A DNA stretch of 45,858 bases from a candidate division KSB1 bacterium (lineage in GTDB: Bacteria; Zhuqueibacterota; JdFR-76; DREG01), in NCBI GenBank assembly GCA_022566355.1, contig JADFJB010000019.1, positions 1 to 45,858 of the forward strand, read 5' to 3'. Shown here in pieces: positions 7,686-44,833 of the stretch (its first letter is position 1; each line of letters opens with the position of its first letter). The translations under genes and the position numbers were made by a program. Under the pieces are notes generated by a model. The model ran no database searches. It worked only from the letters and a program-made list of their open reading frames with translations, and was not told the origin of the DNA.

Positions 7686-8156
7686 ATGAGTGATCAAAAT
7701 TGTTGGCTAATGAAGAGTGAACCATATGTATATTCTATTGATGATTTGGAAAAGGATAGTACAACCCATTGGGAGGGTGTCCGCAATTATAAAGCACGAA
7801 ATTATATGAAAAATGAAATGCAAATCGGGGATTGGGTTTTATTCTATCATTCTAATGCTGAACCGCCCGGTGTAGCTGGAATAGCAAAAGTATGTAAATT
7901 AGCATATCCTGATTACTTTGCTTTCGATCCTTCAAACAAGTATTTTGATCCCAAATCATCTAAAGAGAATCCAACTTGGTATATGGTAGATATCGAGTTT
8001 ATTGAGAAGTTTCCCCATTTTTTATCTTTGGGTGAATTAAGAGAGAATGAAGATCTTGATGGTATTATGGTCACAAAACGAGGTATTCGGCTATCGGTGC
8101 AACCGGTTGGATATAAACATTTCGAAATCATAAAAAGTTTGGGGCGCAATGAGTAG
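7686..8156 (+). CDS. EVE domain-containing protein
   Basis: This 157-residue protein is an EVE domain protein, a PUA/YTH-like fold related to human THYN1. Members are thought to bind modified bases, but the role in bacteria is not settled. Diagnostic features are WLMKSEP at the N-terminus, WEGVRNYKARN, a GDWVLFYHSN strand and the C-terminal RLSVQPV segment. ATG 7686 is the chosen start, with GGAAG five bases upstream; an in-frame TTG at 7674 is possible. It follows rnc by about 20 bases and may be co-transcribed. Confidence 0.85.
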   Translation: MSDQNCWLMKSEPYVYSIDDLEKDSTTHWEGVRNYKARNYMKNEMQIGDWVLFYHSNAEPPGVAGIAKVCKLAYPDYFAFDPSNKYFDPKSSKENPTWYMVDIEFIEKFPHFLSLGELRENEDLDGIMVTKRGIRLSVQPVGYKHFEIIKSLGRNE

Positions 8157-8194
8157 AATAAATAAATATTAAATCTAATAAAGGACCAGTTGAC

Positions 8195-9595
8195 ATGTCG
8201 TCTGACAAATTCAGAATTGAAACCGATTCAATGGGAGAAATGAAAGTCCCGTAAAAAGCGTATTGGGGAGCACAGACACAACGGGCAATTGAAAATTTTC
8301 CAATAAGCGATCTTAGGTTTCCAAGGAGATTCTTGCGCGCATTAGGAATGGTTAAATTATCTGCCGCAAAAGCAAATTCACAACTCGGGTTACTAGATGA
8401 AAAACTAAAAAATATAATATCCCAGGCAGCAAAAGAAGTAATGGATGGAAATTATGATGACCAGTTCGTTTTAGATATTTTTCAGACTGGTTCGGGAACG
8501 TCGACCAATATGAATGCGAATGAAGTAATCGGAAATCGAGCAAATGAGATATTAGGTGGCAGTATCGGTGATAAAAAACCGGTTCATCCGAATGACCATG
8601 TAAACATGGGACAATCTAGCAATGATGTAATTCCTACGTGTATTCATATTTCCGTACTCGAAGCAATACATAATGATTTAATGCCAGCATTAAAGCAGTT
8701 AGCAGAAGCTTTAATTTCAAAAGAAAAAGAATTTGATAAGATAATAAAAATCGGCCGTACACATTTACAGGATGCAACGCCAATTCGACTTGGTCAAGAA
8801 TTCAGCGGTTACGCGAGCATGATACAACATGGCATTAAGCGCCTAATGAATGTTTACGAAAACCTGTCCGAACTGGCCATCGGAGGAACTGCTGTTGGTA
8901 CCGGAATAAATACTCATCCGCAATTTGCTCAACTGGTTATTAAAGAGGTCAAAAGGATAACTGGGTTGGAATTTCGGGAAGCGGAAAACCATTTTGAAGC
9001 TCAAGGTGCGAAAGATGCAACGGTTGAAGTAAGTGCTGTACTGAAAACAATTGCAGTTAGTCTTACTAAAATAGCCAATGACATACGATGGCTGGGTTCC
9101 GGCCCACGCTGTGGCATTGGAGAAATATTGATTCCTGAAGTGCAGCCAGGATCCTCAATTATGCCGGGTAAGGTGAATCCCGTCATTGCTGAAGCATTAT
9201 GTATGGTAGCTGCACAAATCATAGGCAATGATGCCGCTGTAACAGTCGGTGGACTAACCGGTAATTTCGAATTGAATGTAATGATGCCGGTAATTACTTA
9301 TAACCTGCTGCAGTCAATTGATTTATTAAGCAAAGGAGTATTGGTTTTTACAGAAAAATGTATTTCCGGTTTACGTGCAAATGAAACTAGAACCAAAGAG
9401 TTAGTTGAATTAAGTCTGGCAATGTGTACAGCTTTATCCCCGAAAATAGGTTATGATTCTGCTGCCAAAATTGCAAAACAGGCGTATGCAACAGGTAAGA
9501 CGATCCGTGAAGTTGCACAGGAGCTTAATGTATTACCACCGGATGAACTAAATAAAGTTCTGGATCCCTGGTCGATGACAGAACCTGGAGTGTGA
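8195..9595 (+). CDS. fumC: Class II fumarate hydratase, interrupted by an in-frame TAA near the N-terminus
   Basis: FumC interconverts fumarate and malate in the TCA cycle. The frame starting at ATG 8195 (MSSDKFRIETDSMG) is homologous to FumC from its first residues, but TAA at 8252-8254 replaces codon 20. The same frame then continues with KAYWGAQTQRA, matching VPxxxYWGAQTQR, and stays open to 9595. The rest looks intact: TGSGTSTNMNANEV, GRTHLQDATP and the signature GSSIMPGKVNP. Without readthrough, translation could only restart at an internal codon such as TTG 8333, losing about 46 residues. Causes could be a real nonsense mutation, stop-codon readthrough or a sequence error. The other genes use TAA normally, so code reassignment is unlikely. 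Confidence 0.88.
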
Positions 9596-30314: not shown

Positions 30315-30423
30315 CGGGTTGAGCTTAAGAATCTTTAAAGATAATTTAATGAATTTTTTTATTGAATTAGAATAAAGCGAACCTTGTTTTTCTTCTTAAA
30401 TTATCATAAATTAGATTAAAATT

Positions 30424-30657
30424 ATGGAAAAATATAAATTTACAATTATCGTTGAGCCAGACGAAGATAGCTTTCACGCTTATGTACCAGCTTTACCTGG
30501 GTGTCACTCATTTGGCGCTACTATAGATGAGGCACAATCGAATATTTCGGAGGCGATTGCTCTCCATGTTGAATGTATGAAGAAAGATGGAGAGCCCATT
30601 CGAGTTGAGAAACAGCCATTAGTTATTACACAAATGACTGTTACTGTTCCCTTATAA
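30424..30657 (+). CDS. hicB: HicB family antitoxin
   Basis: This 77-residue protein has the HicB partial RNase H-like fold: YKFTIIVEPDEDSFHAYVPALPGCHSFGATIDEAQSN-type sequence followed by a helix with EAIALHVE. It normally neutralises HicA. No C-terminal DNA-binding domain is visible, so autoregulation would need another factor. Here it precedes hicA by 144 bases, so the pair is not tightly coupled. Confidence 0.85.
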   Translation: MEKYKFTIIVEPDEDSFHAYVPALPGCHSFGATIDEAQSNISEAIALHVECMKKDGEPIRVEKQPLVITQMTVTVPL

Positions 30658-30801
30658 AAATACCTTAGTTGAATTTTTGTTGATAAGGTAAAATATTAAA
30701 TAATTAAATAAGTATTTATTATCCCATAGTTAAGTTGTATAAAACCATTTTTTAAGGATAGTATGAATTAAACTGAACTTAAACAAGTAATGAAGAATTA
30801 A

Positions 30802-31032
30802 ATGACCCCGAAGCTTCCGAATATTACTGGCACTAAGCTTCTACGTGTTTTAAAAAAAGCTGGTTTCGAAGAGGTTAGACAAAAAGGAAGCCATTTACAT
30901 ATGAAGCGAGAAATAGATAAAAAACGAGTTACAATCCCTATTCACAAAGGTAAATCAATTCCCACTGGTACTCTCCATTCAATTTTGACTGATGCTGATA
31001 TTAGTGTGAAGAAACTATATGAACTTCTTTGA
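30802..31032 (+). CDS. hicA: HicA family mRNA interferase toxin
   Basis: This 76-residue protein has the double-stranded RNA-binding-like HicA fold. Its signature is TGTKLLRVLKKAGFEEVRQKGSHLHM, with the catalytic His in GSHLHM (about residue 34), and VTIPIHKGKSIPTGTL follows. The active His is kept, so it may be functional. The partner hicB is 144 bases upstream on the same strand. The gap between them holds no recognisable feature. Confidence 0.87.
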   Translation: MTPKLPNITGTKLLRVLKKAGFEEVRQKGSHLHMKREIDKKRVTIPIHKGKSIPTGTLHSILTDADISVKKLYELL

Positions 31033-31344
31033 ATCGAATCATTTTTGGGTTTACGTTTTCAATAAATACTTTTATTCATAGCACAGTTCAAGGCTGCAAA
31101 CAGATTAAAACTTTGATAAAGAAACAAAGTTTTTGTCGGTAATAGCATAACAAGCGATTTAAATGGGAAGAATTTGGCAAGAAGCCCCATTCTATAAAAT
31201 ATATTTACAGTTATAAGTGTCATTAAAGTCTTAGTATTCAATATTTACAAAGCGTTGCTCATATCATTTTGGAGATATGTAATGCGGTTGAAACTTGGCC
31301 TTAAGCCATTTAGAGGCATGGACAACTGTTCCAATTAATTACCA
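31033..31344. other. Non-coding gap after hicA
   Basis: I see no confident gene, RNA or repeat here. A 60-codon open frame on the minus strand lacks recognisable features. Around 31282 a short stretch on the plus strand reads like the segment before the helicase domain of Cas3 (LKPFRGM), so the decayed cas3 gene may begin inside this gap. Confidence 0.4.
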
Positions 31345-31831
31345 GTACCCCCTTTTCCGCTGCAATCTATAAGATATCAGATAACAGAAAGCATATAATC
31401 GTTACAGCTCCAACCGGTGCCTTCCGTCAAAGTCCTTACCTCGCACCAAATGGATTCTATTGTTTTCGGCACGCGAGGCTTTGAAGCAATGCTGTTAGAT
31501 GTAATGGACTGCGATGTAATTTTAGATGAAATCCATACCTACACGGATGTAACCAAAGCCATTGTACTAAAAATCGTAGAAGTATTAAACCACTTCAACT
31601 GCAAAATACATATTGGCACTGCTACGATGCCGTGTGTTCTTTACAAAGATATTTTAAAATCCTGAATGAAAAAAATGTTTATCAGATAAAGCCCGGACCT
31701 GACACATTGGATTCTTTCGATCGGCATATTATTCACAAAGTTGCTGACTTTGATCAAGTAGATCCTTTGATTGTGGAGGCTAGTTATGAGTTACATCATT
31801 ATGTTTTGCCGTTTCACTTTTGCGGTCTCTC
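31345..31831 (+). pseudogene. cas3: Degraded CRISPR-associated helicase Cas3 remnant
   Basis: Pieces of a type I Cas3 helicase occur in order on one strand but in different frames. They are FPLQS, HIIVTAPTGA (motif I, 31392-31421), then VKVLTSHQMDSIVFGTRG, CDVILDEIHTY (DExH, motif II) and IGTATMP (motif III), and finally EKNVYQIKP and LDSFDRHIIHKV in another frame. Between motif I and VKVLT roughly 100 residues are missing, which points to an internal deletion. There are frameshifts near 31370, 31421 and between 31632 and 31665. The HD nuclease domain and helicase C-terminal half are absent. No CRISPR array or other cas genes are nearby. Confidence 0.75.
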
Positions 31832-31833
31832 GT

Positions 31834-33195
31834 TTAAAACCTCAGAATAAAAATAGTTTCTTCATTCGGTTTAGATACCGCACTAATCGCTCCACGGTGG
31901 GAGCGCATAATTTGCCTGGATAAACTTAAACCAATACCAGTCCCGCCTTTTTTAGTAGTAAAAAACGGGATGAATACTTTTTCCAGGACGTCTTTTAAAA
32001 TACCGGGGCCATTGTCAATCACCTTAATCAAAATTCTGCCTCGGTCATCCATTTCTGCGGTTAATGTTAATTTTGGCTCATATTGCTGACCAACTGATTG
32101 TATGGAATTCGAAAGCAGGTTGATCAATACTTGCTCGATCAATTCCGGGTCGGCCGTTAATTCCAGGCTTTCCGGATTAATACTCGATTCGAAATGAATT
32201 TTATTGTCATCTATTTGAGTTTGCATCAATCGAATAATGCGATCGAACAATTCCGAAACCGCAAAGATCTGAAAATTGGGCTTGGGAATACGAGTGAGAC
32301 TCCGGTAAGCATCGACAAAATGAAGTAACCCCTCGCTGCGTTTTTGAATGGTCTGTATAGCGCCTCGGATATCTGCTATGGTTTCTTCACTTGTTTCATT
32401 TCCAAAAATTAGATTTTCATCAGCGCCATTAGAGGTCAGCATGTTGTTCACAGTAGAGGCAAGGGATGAAATTGGCGTCACGGAATTCATGATTTCATGA
32501 GTTAAAACACGGATCAGCTTTTGCCAGGCTTCCATCTCTTTTTCTTCCAATTCGCTTTGAATATTTTGCAAAGAAACAAGCTTTAGCTTTTGCTGTTGTC
32601 TTTTGAATTCGGTTGCATAAATGGCAATTTGCAGCAACTCATTGTTATCGTAGATTTTAGCCAATGTCTTTTCACCGGATTTAAGCTTGAACAAAATATC
32701 CACAAGGGGTTTGCTAAAGGATTCTAATTTGTTGATATTCTTCAAGTGCGGTATTCTTAGTAATCGTTTGGCTGCGGTATTGATGAGCTCAACATTGCCA
32801 TCATCTTCGAAGGCGATCAGTCCAATTCCAACATGCTGTACAATAATTTGTAAATAACGGAAATGTTCTTCCTTCTCACTCCTGGTTTTGCGAAATTTAT
32901 CAGATACTTCATTAAACGCTTCCTTTAAATCGTTAAATGCAGAGCCGAGTCCGGTTACGGAAAATGACTGGGAAAAATCGGAATGTTTAATCGCATCCAA
33001 GAAGCGGGTTAAATCCCGGTTGGTTTTTTCAACATAATAAATCAAGCCATAGATTTGGTAGATTGTGAAACTTACAACGATGATCATTGTGGCATAAAGT
33101 TCTGTCTCAAATAGTAGATAGAAAAACAGATAGATGAATAGGGCGATAAGAAGTACACGGAATATACAGTTAACGCGGAAATGTTTATATACCAT
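31834..33195 (-). CDS. NtrY-like sensor histidine kinase
   Basis: This is a membrane histidine kinase of about 453 residues. Two hydrophobic segments lie near the N-terminus (about 10-30 and 34-52), then a HAMP-like/PAS region with VGIGLIAFEDDGNVELIN. The phospho-acceptor His is in LTHEIMNSVTPIS (about residue 237). The ATP-binding domain has the N box in INLLSNSIQSV and G boxes DNGPGI and GGTGIGLSLS. Its signal is unknown. ATG 33195 lies within the end of the response regulator gene, an 11-base overlap; a TTG at 33204 is possible. It forms a two-component pair with the activator next to it. Confidence 0.9.
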   Translation of the reverse strand: MVYKHFRVNCIFRVLLIALFIYLFFYLLFETELYATMIIVVSFTIYQIYGLIYYVEKTNRDLTRFLDAIKHSDFSQSFSVTGLGSAFNDLKEAFNEVSDKFRKTRSEKEEHFRYLQIIVQHVGIGLIAFEDDGNVELINTAAKRLLRIPHLKNINKLESFSKPLVDILFKLKSGEKTLAKIYDNNELLQIAIYATEFKRQQQKLKLVSLQNIQSELEEKEMEAWQKLIRVLTHEIMNSVTPISSLASTVNNMLTSNGADENLIFGNETSEETIADIRGAIQTIQKRSEGLLHFVDAYRSLTRIPKPNFQIFAVSELFDRIIRLMQTQIDDNKIHFESSINPESLELTADPELIEQVLINLLSNSIQSVGQQYEPKLTLTAEMDDRGRILIKVIDNGPGILKDVLEKVFIPFFTTKKGGTGIGLSLSRQIMRSHRGAISAVSKPNEETIFILRF

Positions 33196-42344: not shown

Positions 42345-42386
42345 TTCATTGTTCATTGATCATTGTTCATTGCTCATTGCTCATTG
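42345..42386 (+). repeat. Heptamer array (NTCATTG), six copies
   Basis: Six consecutive 7-base units NTCATTG, with the first base T, T, A, T, C and C, run straight into the GGAGG ribosome binding site of the second permease. It is inverted relative to the array at 41895-41923. Confidence 0.9.
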
Positions 42387-42394
42387 GAGGATGC

Positions 42395-44833
42395 ATGTTT
42401 AAGAATTATTTGAAAATATCACTTCGTAATCTTCTTCGCTACAAAGGGTACTCGCTCATAAATATAGTAGGACTGGCAATCGGAATAACTTGCACTATCA
42501 TGATTTTTCTGTTTGTACAGGATGAAATGTCATTTGACAATTTCCATACAAAATCGGATAGACTTTATCGACTGAACAAGAAAGTAACTCCCCAAACTGG
42601 TGGCACTGAATGGCATGCAATTACACCTGGATTAATGGGACCGACGATGGTGTCTGATTTCCCCGAAGTGGAGCAAAGCCTGCGTTTGCTGCCATGGTTT
42701 GATGATGTATTGATGACCCGAGGTGAAACTTCATTGAAAGTGTCAAATGTTGTTTTTGCTGATTCAAATTTCTTTGATATTTTTGATTTTCGTCTGTTAC
42801 AAGGGAATGCTAAAACTGCTCTGGTTGAGCCATTATCTATCATCTTATCAGAAAAAACAGCCGGGAAGTTTTTTGGTAATTCCGATCCTATTGGCCAGGT
42901 TATTCAAGGATTAAATGATTTATCATACAAAGTGACGGGAATTATTGAGGAAACTCCGGCCAATTCCTCATTGAGATATAATGCTTTGATCTCCTGGACT
43001 TCGACAATTCCCGGTACTGGTCCGCTCAACTGGAGTTGGTTGAATCGATGGATTACACAAGTCAACTTCACTTATTTACTATTATTTCCTGAGACCGATG
43101 TTCCTGCCTTTGAGAAAAAATTGGCTGATTTTATGGTGAAGTATATGCCAAGGCAAGCAGAATATTACAAACTGTATCTACAGCCATTGGCGGATATCTA
43201 TCTAAAATCATCACAAATTCGATTTAATGATAGTTTGTTGTTGGGTAATATTACTACTGTCTACATCTTCTCGGCCATCGCTTTGTTAACCTTACTTATT
43301 GCATGCATTAACTTCACAAATCTATCAACAGCCCGGGCCACAAAACGAGCAAGAGAAGTTGGTATTCGGAAAGTCTTGGGCGCCGAGAGAAAACAGTTAG
43401 CGAAGCAGTTTCTTGGTGAATCGATATTTTGAGTTTTTTGGCAGCAATTATTGCAATGAACTTTGTCGAGGTCATTTTACCTTATTTCAATGCGTTTGCC
43501 GGCAAATCTTTAGCATTTGATGCAATGAATAATTGGACTTTATTTTGGAGTCTGGTTTGTATTCCGGTTTTTGTCGGTACAATTTCAGGAATTTATCCGG
43601 CGCTGTTATTGTCATCCTATCGTCCAATAGCTGTTTTAAGCGGAAACACGCCAATTATTCCTTGAAACTACCTTCTTTAAAACGTGGCTCGACAAAAAGT
43701 ATAAAAAGTACAACATTCCGAAGCGGACTGGTTGTGTTTCAGTTTGGGATATCAATCATTTTGATTGCAGGTACTATCATTATTTACCAGCAAATGCAAT
43801 TTATGCAAACAAAAAAGTTAGGATTTGATAAGGAACAGATTGTTGTTTTGCCTATTGGAAATACAGAAATATCGGATCAGTACCAGGCTTTAAGAATGAA
43901 CTAATACAACATTCCAACATTTCCCACGTTGCCGGGAGTAATAGTGTTCCGGGTTTGGGAATGATGAGCTTCGGACTTCGTCCGGAAGGGAAATCGGAAG
44001 ATGAAGAATGGATCGCTTATTCGATTCGTGTGGATGATTATGATTTTCTTGGGACGTATGGACTTGAAATGACAGCAGGCCGGTATTTTTCCAGGGAATT
44101 TGCAACTGATGAAACGAACGCAGTTGTCATTAATGAATCCCTTGCAAAAAGCTTAGGCTGGAAAAATCCAGTTGGAAAGCAATTGGATATAAAAGGTGAG
44201 CTGGAGGATGGAATTGTGATAGGCGTCATCAAAGATTTTCATACAAGGTCGCTTCACCATAAGATTGAACCTTTGATCTTTTATTTTGCTCCTCGCTGGG
44301 AAAATGTTTCAGTACGAATCGCAGGGGAAAATATACCTGCTACAATTCAGTTTTTACAAAACAAATGGCAGGCATTTGAGTCGAGATATCCTTTCGAATA
44401 TTATTTCCTGGATCAAAAGTTTACTCAATTTTATGAATCCGAACAACACTTGATGAAAACATTCGGGCTTTTTTCTGCACTTGCCATTTTTATAGCGAGC
44501 TTGGGATTATTGGGTTTGGCTGCTTATACAGCTGAACAGCGGACCAAAGAAATTGGCGTACGAAAAGTCCTTGGGGCTACGGTTACCAGCATTATCATGC
44601 TGCTATCAAAGCAATTCAGTCGGCTCGTTTTGTTTGCATTTATAGTCGCTTCTCCGGTAGTCTATTTTGTAATGAATCGCTGGTTGCAGGATTTCGCCTT
44701 TAGAATTAATGTTAGCTGGTGGGTCTATGCACTGGCCGGTGGGCTGGCGTTGGTGATTGCCCTGCTTACGGTGAGCACACAAGCGATTCGGGCGGCATTG
44801 ATTAATCCGGTAGAAGCGTTGCGGTATGAGTAA
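42395..44833 (+). pseudogene. FtsX/MacB-type ABC permease, second copy, broken by three frameshifts
   Basis: The gene starts at ATG 42395 after GGAGG and reads MFKNYLKISLRNLLRYKGYSLINIVGLAIGI, a paralogue of the first permease. The frame is lost three times, each repaired by adding one base in a short run: T4 at 43427-43430, TT at 43662-43663 and AA at 43892-43893. With these repairs the protein continues through EVGIRKVLGA and the second half to the C-terminus NPVEALRYE, about 810 residues. Everything else looks normal, so either it decayed recently or the assembly under-calls runs here. The window's first permease has no such breaks. Confidence 0.82.

Follow-up and report, generated by a model that had tools for sequence, protein, structure and literature searches.

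Probable relic of a type I-B CRISPR-Cas operon, reduced to broken cas6 and cas3 pieces, in a candidate division KSB1 genome

Introduction

Degenerate cas loci and cas pseudogenes consist of partial cas genes that remain after the loss of a CRISPR-Cas system. Complete type I-B operons of two kinds are relevant to the locus described here. Those on the plasmids of Flammeovirga sp. MY04 (NZ_CP003562.2) and Salinibacter ruber (pSR66, NZ_CP030366.1) have the gene order cas6-cas5-cas3-cas8-cas7-cas4-cas1-cas2. Those found in a genome of the same order as our bacterium (G005:C112) and in another of the same phylum (G022:C52) encode Cas8b1/Cst1, a Cst2/DevR-type Cas7 and Cas5t, with three cas genes between cas6 and cas3. 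In an I-B operon of the former genome (L050), which is otherwise complete, an open reading frame (ORF) at 7695-8276 lies between cas6 and cas8 and, judging by its sequence, looks like a REP-associated (Y1) transposase.

We analyzed a stretch of 45,858 nucleotides from a candidate division KSB1 bacterium (contig JADFJB010000019.1; hereafter, the window), in which a scar of about 500 bases lies between two ordinary genes and joins the start of cas6 to a broken piece of cas3. We found nothing in the literature describing this locus. As detailed below, 31282-31781 is, with high confidence, a dead relic without biochemical function, derived from a type I-B CRISPR-Cas operon.

Results

The best preserved part of the scar is an 82-aa ORF (31417-31665, frame of 31273) that contains both the DExH box (DEIH) and motif III (TATMP) of the Cas3 helicase, the Cas3 segment itself spanning 31423-31659 on the forward strand. 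Its best profile match is the PADLOC Cas3b family PDLC02079 (E 3e-41 over 79 positions, model 299-385), which bears out the preliminary description of a Cas3 remnant at this site; the match to TIGR01587 (cas3_core; E 3e-9) falls below the cut-off because only about one-quarter of the domain remains. The segment is collinear with, and 57% and 54% identical to, the intact Cas3 proteins of the Flammeovirga and Salinibacter plasmid operons, respectively. The closest intact Cas3 proteins identified are all plasmid-borne, within a search that covered plasmid and phage records only, and the Cas3 cores of G005:C112 and G022:C52 are more distant (30-36% identity). In a tree of Cas3 proteins only, the fragment groups with those of L008-L011 and L015 (support 84/81). 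No PDB match for the fragment was obtained. On sequence similarity, we regard the DEIH/TATMP segment as Cas3 beyond reasonable doubt.

Two further Cas3 pieces flank this segment, both in the frame of 31272 on the forward strand. Upstream, SDNRKHIIVTAPTGA (31377-31421) ends in motif I, TAPTGA (31404-31421), aligns in tblastn with residues 226-252 of Salinibacter Cas3, and reaches a Cas3 profile score unmatched by any of 2000 dinucleotide shuffles or 1324 window tiles. Downstream, LDSFDRHIIHKV... (31660-31781), which includes LDSFDRH, independently matches PDLC02079 (E 7e-8, model 382-427) and can be traced by tblastn to residue 433 of Flammeovirga Cas3. Because model positions 299-385 are directly continued by 382-427, the break between these two segments is a frameshift without a large deletion. 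Motif I, the DExH box and motif III thus occur in the order and in the shifting frames previously reported, and in profile searches of the frames the segments match Cas3 first, with no other family ahead. Between motif I and the DExH box, at approximately 31422-31425, the spacing in the closest intact relatives indicates that some 70-75 residues, including the GKT of motif I, are missing, a smaller loss than the roughly 100 residues estimated earlier.

The helicase core is therefore matched by the family profiles TIGR01587 and PDLC02079, whereas a complete Walker A motif (GKT), the HD nuclease and the second RecA domain are lacking: TAPTGA runs into the deletion, and no HD or C-terminal Cas3 sequence was detected in 30315-31836. 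The Cas3 piece is a pseudogene fragment and does not encode a working Cas3. We looked for an intact gene with the same breaks in other genomes, the case that would have argued against a remnant, and found none; neither did we find relatives of the scar in viral contigs or phages. A candidate locus from Saprospiraceae (L043), retrieved in the search of genome contigs, was rejected, because an unrelated intact gene there happens to contain the matching peptide (NHFNCKIH).

Immediately upstream of the cas3 part, 95 bases (31282-31376) read as the start of Cas6 in three shifting frames of the forward strand: MRLKLGLKP... (31282-31327, frame of 31273), VPINYQYPL (31328-31354, frame of 31271) and (P)FSAAIYKI (31350-31376, frame of 31272), the last being preceded by a frame change within a C/T homopolymer run. 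From the start codon to VPINY there are 46 bases, fitting the 15-16 residues at this place in intact Cas6 proteins of relatives, which start, for example, with MRLKLSLIPLNPKTVVPINYNYPLSSALYKIL or MRIKLSLQPVNRHAQIPINYQYPLSAAIYKIL. A Cas6 N-terminal profile built from 19 starts of relatives scores 20.8 bits for VPINYQYPL, 5.8 and 5.9 bits in the other two frames, with the first piece at model 1-10, the third at 23-31 and all three collinear; neither the best score nor the sum was reached in 2991 shuffles or 2223 window tiles on either strand. This profile is somewhat sharpened because the 19 starts were chosen by motif pattern, and the shuffle and tile controls share the same profile. The three pieces together carry the N-terminal signature MR(L/I)..L...(V/I)P.NYQY.LS..IY..L of Cas6 (TIGR01877). 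Of the remaining protein, including the C-terminal Cas6 domain, nothing is left beyond about 31 codons, and searches of the whole genome with the full Cas6 profile and with full-length Cas6 yielded nothing, as expected for a frameshifted 31-codon piece. The stretch SAAIYKIS could alternatively be read as the part of Cas3 before motif I (SALYPLS in Salinibacter).

Because the Cas6 start lies directly upstream of the Cas3 pieces, we read the scar as a cas6'-'cas3' fusion in operon order. From 5' to 3', it comprises about 31 codons of cas6, cas3 motif I in frame with them, a deletion, the DEIH/TATMP segment, a frameshift and the RH segment, with at least three frame breaks in all. The Cas3 remnant does lie within the span of 31345-31831 given in the preliminary description, yet the feature is longer, beginning with Cas6 at 31282 and being traceable to about 31781. 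The position of cas6 upstream of cas3 on a single strand corresponds to that in type I-B loci L049, L050, L112 and L113. The scar has neither adaptation nor effector genes and no repeat array, which makes it a relic rather than a type I-B locus. No remnants of cas8, cas7, cas5, cas4, cas1 or cas2 were detected, either in 31033-31836 with chromosomal I-B proteins as queries or in 30315-31836 with plasmid I-B proteins.

The remainder of the genome, a draft of 213 contigs that is 98.5% complete, contains no Cas1, no Cst2/DevR-type Cas7, no intact Cas6 and no other Cas3 above the cut-off, these four proteins being the ones searched for. The leftover weak matches to the Cas3 profile fall within long open frames and have the appearance of other helicases. 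I-B-type repeats, represented by one repeat sequence in each case, were found neither in the genome nor in the window. Together with the cas6 piece upstream in I-B order, the absence of the searched-for machinery elsewhere in the genome agrees with the earlier suggestion of a scar left by a lost type I CRISPR-Cas island.

The scar lies between hldE and ntrY, the latter ending at 31834 on the opposite strand. No cas genes were found in eight sister loci around hldE or ntrY, the comparison that had been proposed in search of an intact operon at this junction; in two relatives (G002 and G012) the two genes are on different contigs. Because the two genes are separate there and no cas genes accompany them, the junction is probably specific to this lineage, the relatives compared belonging to other genera.

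Upstream of the scar, an apparently intact hicB-hicA pair occupies 30424-31032, with hicB first (PF15919, HicB-like; PF07927, HicA). The repeat that follows at 31073-31150 is intergenic and dispersed, and has two modules, TTCATAGC.CAG.TCAAGGCTGCAAAC and AAACAAAGTTTTT...TAATAGCATAA; 11 other places in the genome carry partial copies with 79-93% identity, and of four copies in G012, three begin some 40 bases from the end of a contig. The copies in other contigs do not support an interpretation of this repeat as an integron attC site. Elsewhere in the window, a MacB/FtsX-like permease gene at 42356-44833 is distributed over ORFs in shifting frames (42356-43432, 43429-43665 and 43955-44833) that match, one after the other, consecutive stretches of the roughly 800-aa intact permeases of relatives, and is probably a second pseudogene.

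Discussion

From the identity and order of the pieces, the frame breaks and the genome-wide absence of cas1, cas6, Cst2-type cas7 and intact cas3, all observed directly, we infer that a whole, working operon was formerly present, as well as the order and mechanism of the deletions that followed. The ancestral operon would have read rightwards, with cas6 upstream of cas3. By a first deletion, cas6 would have been cut at about codon 31 and fused in frame to motif I of cas3, and the remainder of cas6, any intervening genes and the part of cas3 encoding the HD nuclease would have been lost. The size of this deletion would be about 1.8 kb under an operon of the Flammeovirga/Salinibacter kind and about 5 kb under one of the Cst1/Cst2 kind. 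Some 220 bases of cas3 would have been lost in a second deletion, extending from the final part of motif I to the segment ahead of the DExH box; cas3 beyond about residue 433 would have been lost on the ntrY side, with the 3' part of the operon, and small indels would have broken the frame at least three times. That the in-frame product of the Cas6 start and Cas3 motif I, or its transcript, was retained awhile for regulatory use before decaying seems to us exceedingly improbable.

Most likely, then, the lineage once had a CRISPR system that has since been lost. The alternative of most weight, which we nevertheless consider unlikely, is that the cas operon fragment was already broken on arrival, having come as a passenger on a mobile element or through recombination next to hicBA; in that case there would never have been a working CRISPR system at this place in the lineage. 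The plasmid location of the closest intact Cas3 relatives points in this direction, although that bias stems from the collection searched; so do the hicBA toxin-antitoxin pair and the dispersed repeat just upstream, and the separation of hldE and ntrY in two relatives, which makes the junction a rearrangement point. However, the interval from hldE to ntrY contains no integrase or transposase gene, and pieces that have stayed in operon order, with deletions inside them, are consistent with decay in place.

The other readings fare far worse. Continued expression of the 82-aa ORF, or of the in-frame cas6-cas3 fusion, in a new role might be suggested by the open ORF and the well-preserved residues near DEIH, but is very improbable for a product without the motif I GKT, the HD domain and the second RecA domain, with at least three frame breaks and with no conserved relative of the broken form found on searching. 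Even less credence can be given to assembly or sequencing errors interrupting an otherwise intact gene: the assembly is a draft, and among the frame changes there are small shifts, one of them in a homopolymer run, but base errors cannot explain the loss of at least about 1.8 kb between cas6 and cas3, nor do they account for the deletion inside cas3 or the absent 3' part. There is next to no chance that the central ORF derives from another SF2 helicase (RecG, PriA, UvrB and the like); further helicase-like genes of this genome do weakly match the same Cas3 profile, but the Cas3b families are far ahead of anything else for this ORF, the plasmid matches are all annotated as Cas3, and the fragment has its place among the Cas3 proteins of the tree.

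Compared with complete type I-B operons, the relic combines features of both kinds. Like the Flammeovirga and Salinibacter operons, it has cas6 upstream of cas3 on the same strand, and its Cas3 is of their kind; unlike them, it consists of two broken pieces, and the N-terminus of their Cas6 differs from that of the scar. The NYQYPLSAAIYKI start instead represents the Cas6 type of other I-B operons in the same phylum, of the Cst1/Cst2 kind: Cas6 of G005:C112 and G022:C52 begins similarly, with MR(L/I)..L...VPVNYQYP(L/V)SAAIY, although those operons are complete and, unlike the scar, have their three intervening genes.

A single-gene 'remnant' call can thus hide pieces of neighboring operon genes that are legible only frame by frame. 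The scar appears to document that a type I-B immune system was lost, at a point of rearrangement, from a lineage some of whose relatives retain one, and studies of CRISPR loss can use it as an example. The event is an ordinary one that involves no new kind of system, and the scar is no different in kind from degenerate cas loci in general.
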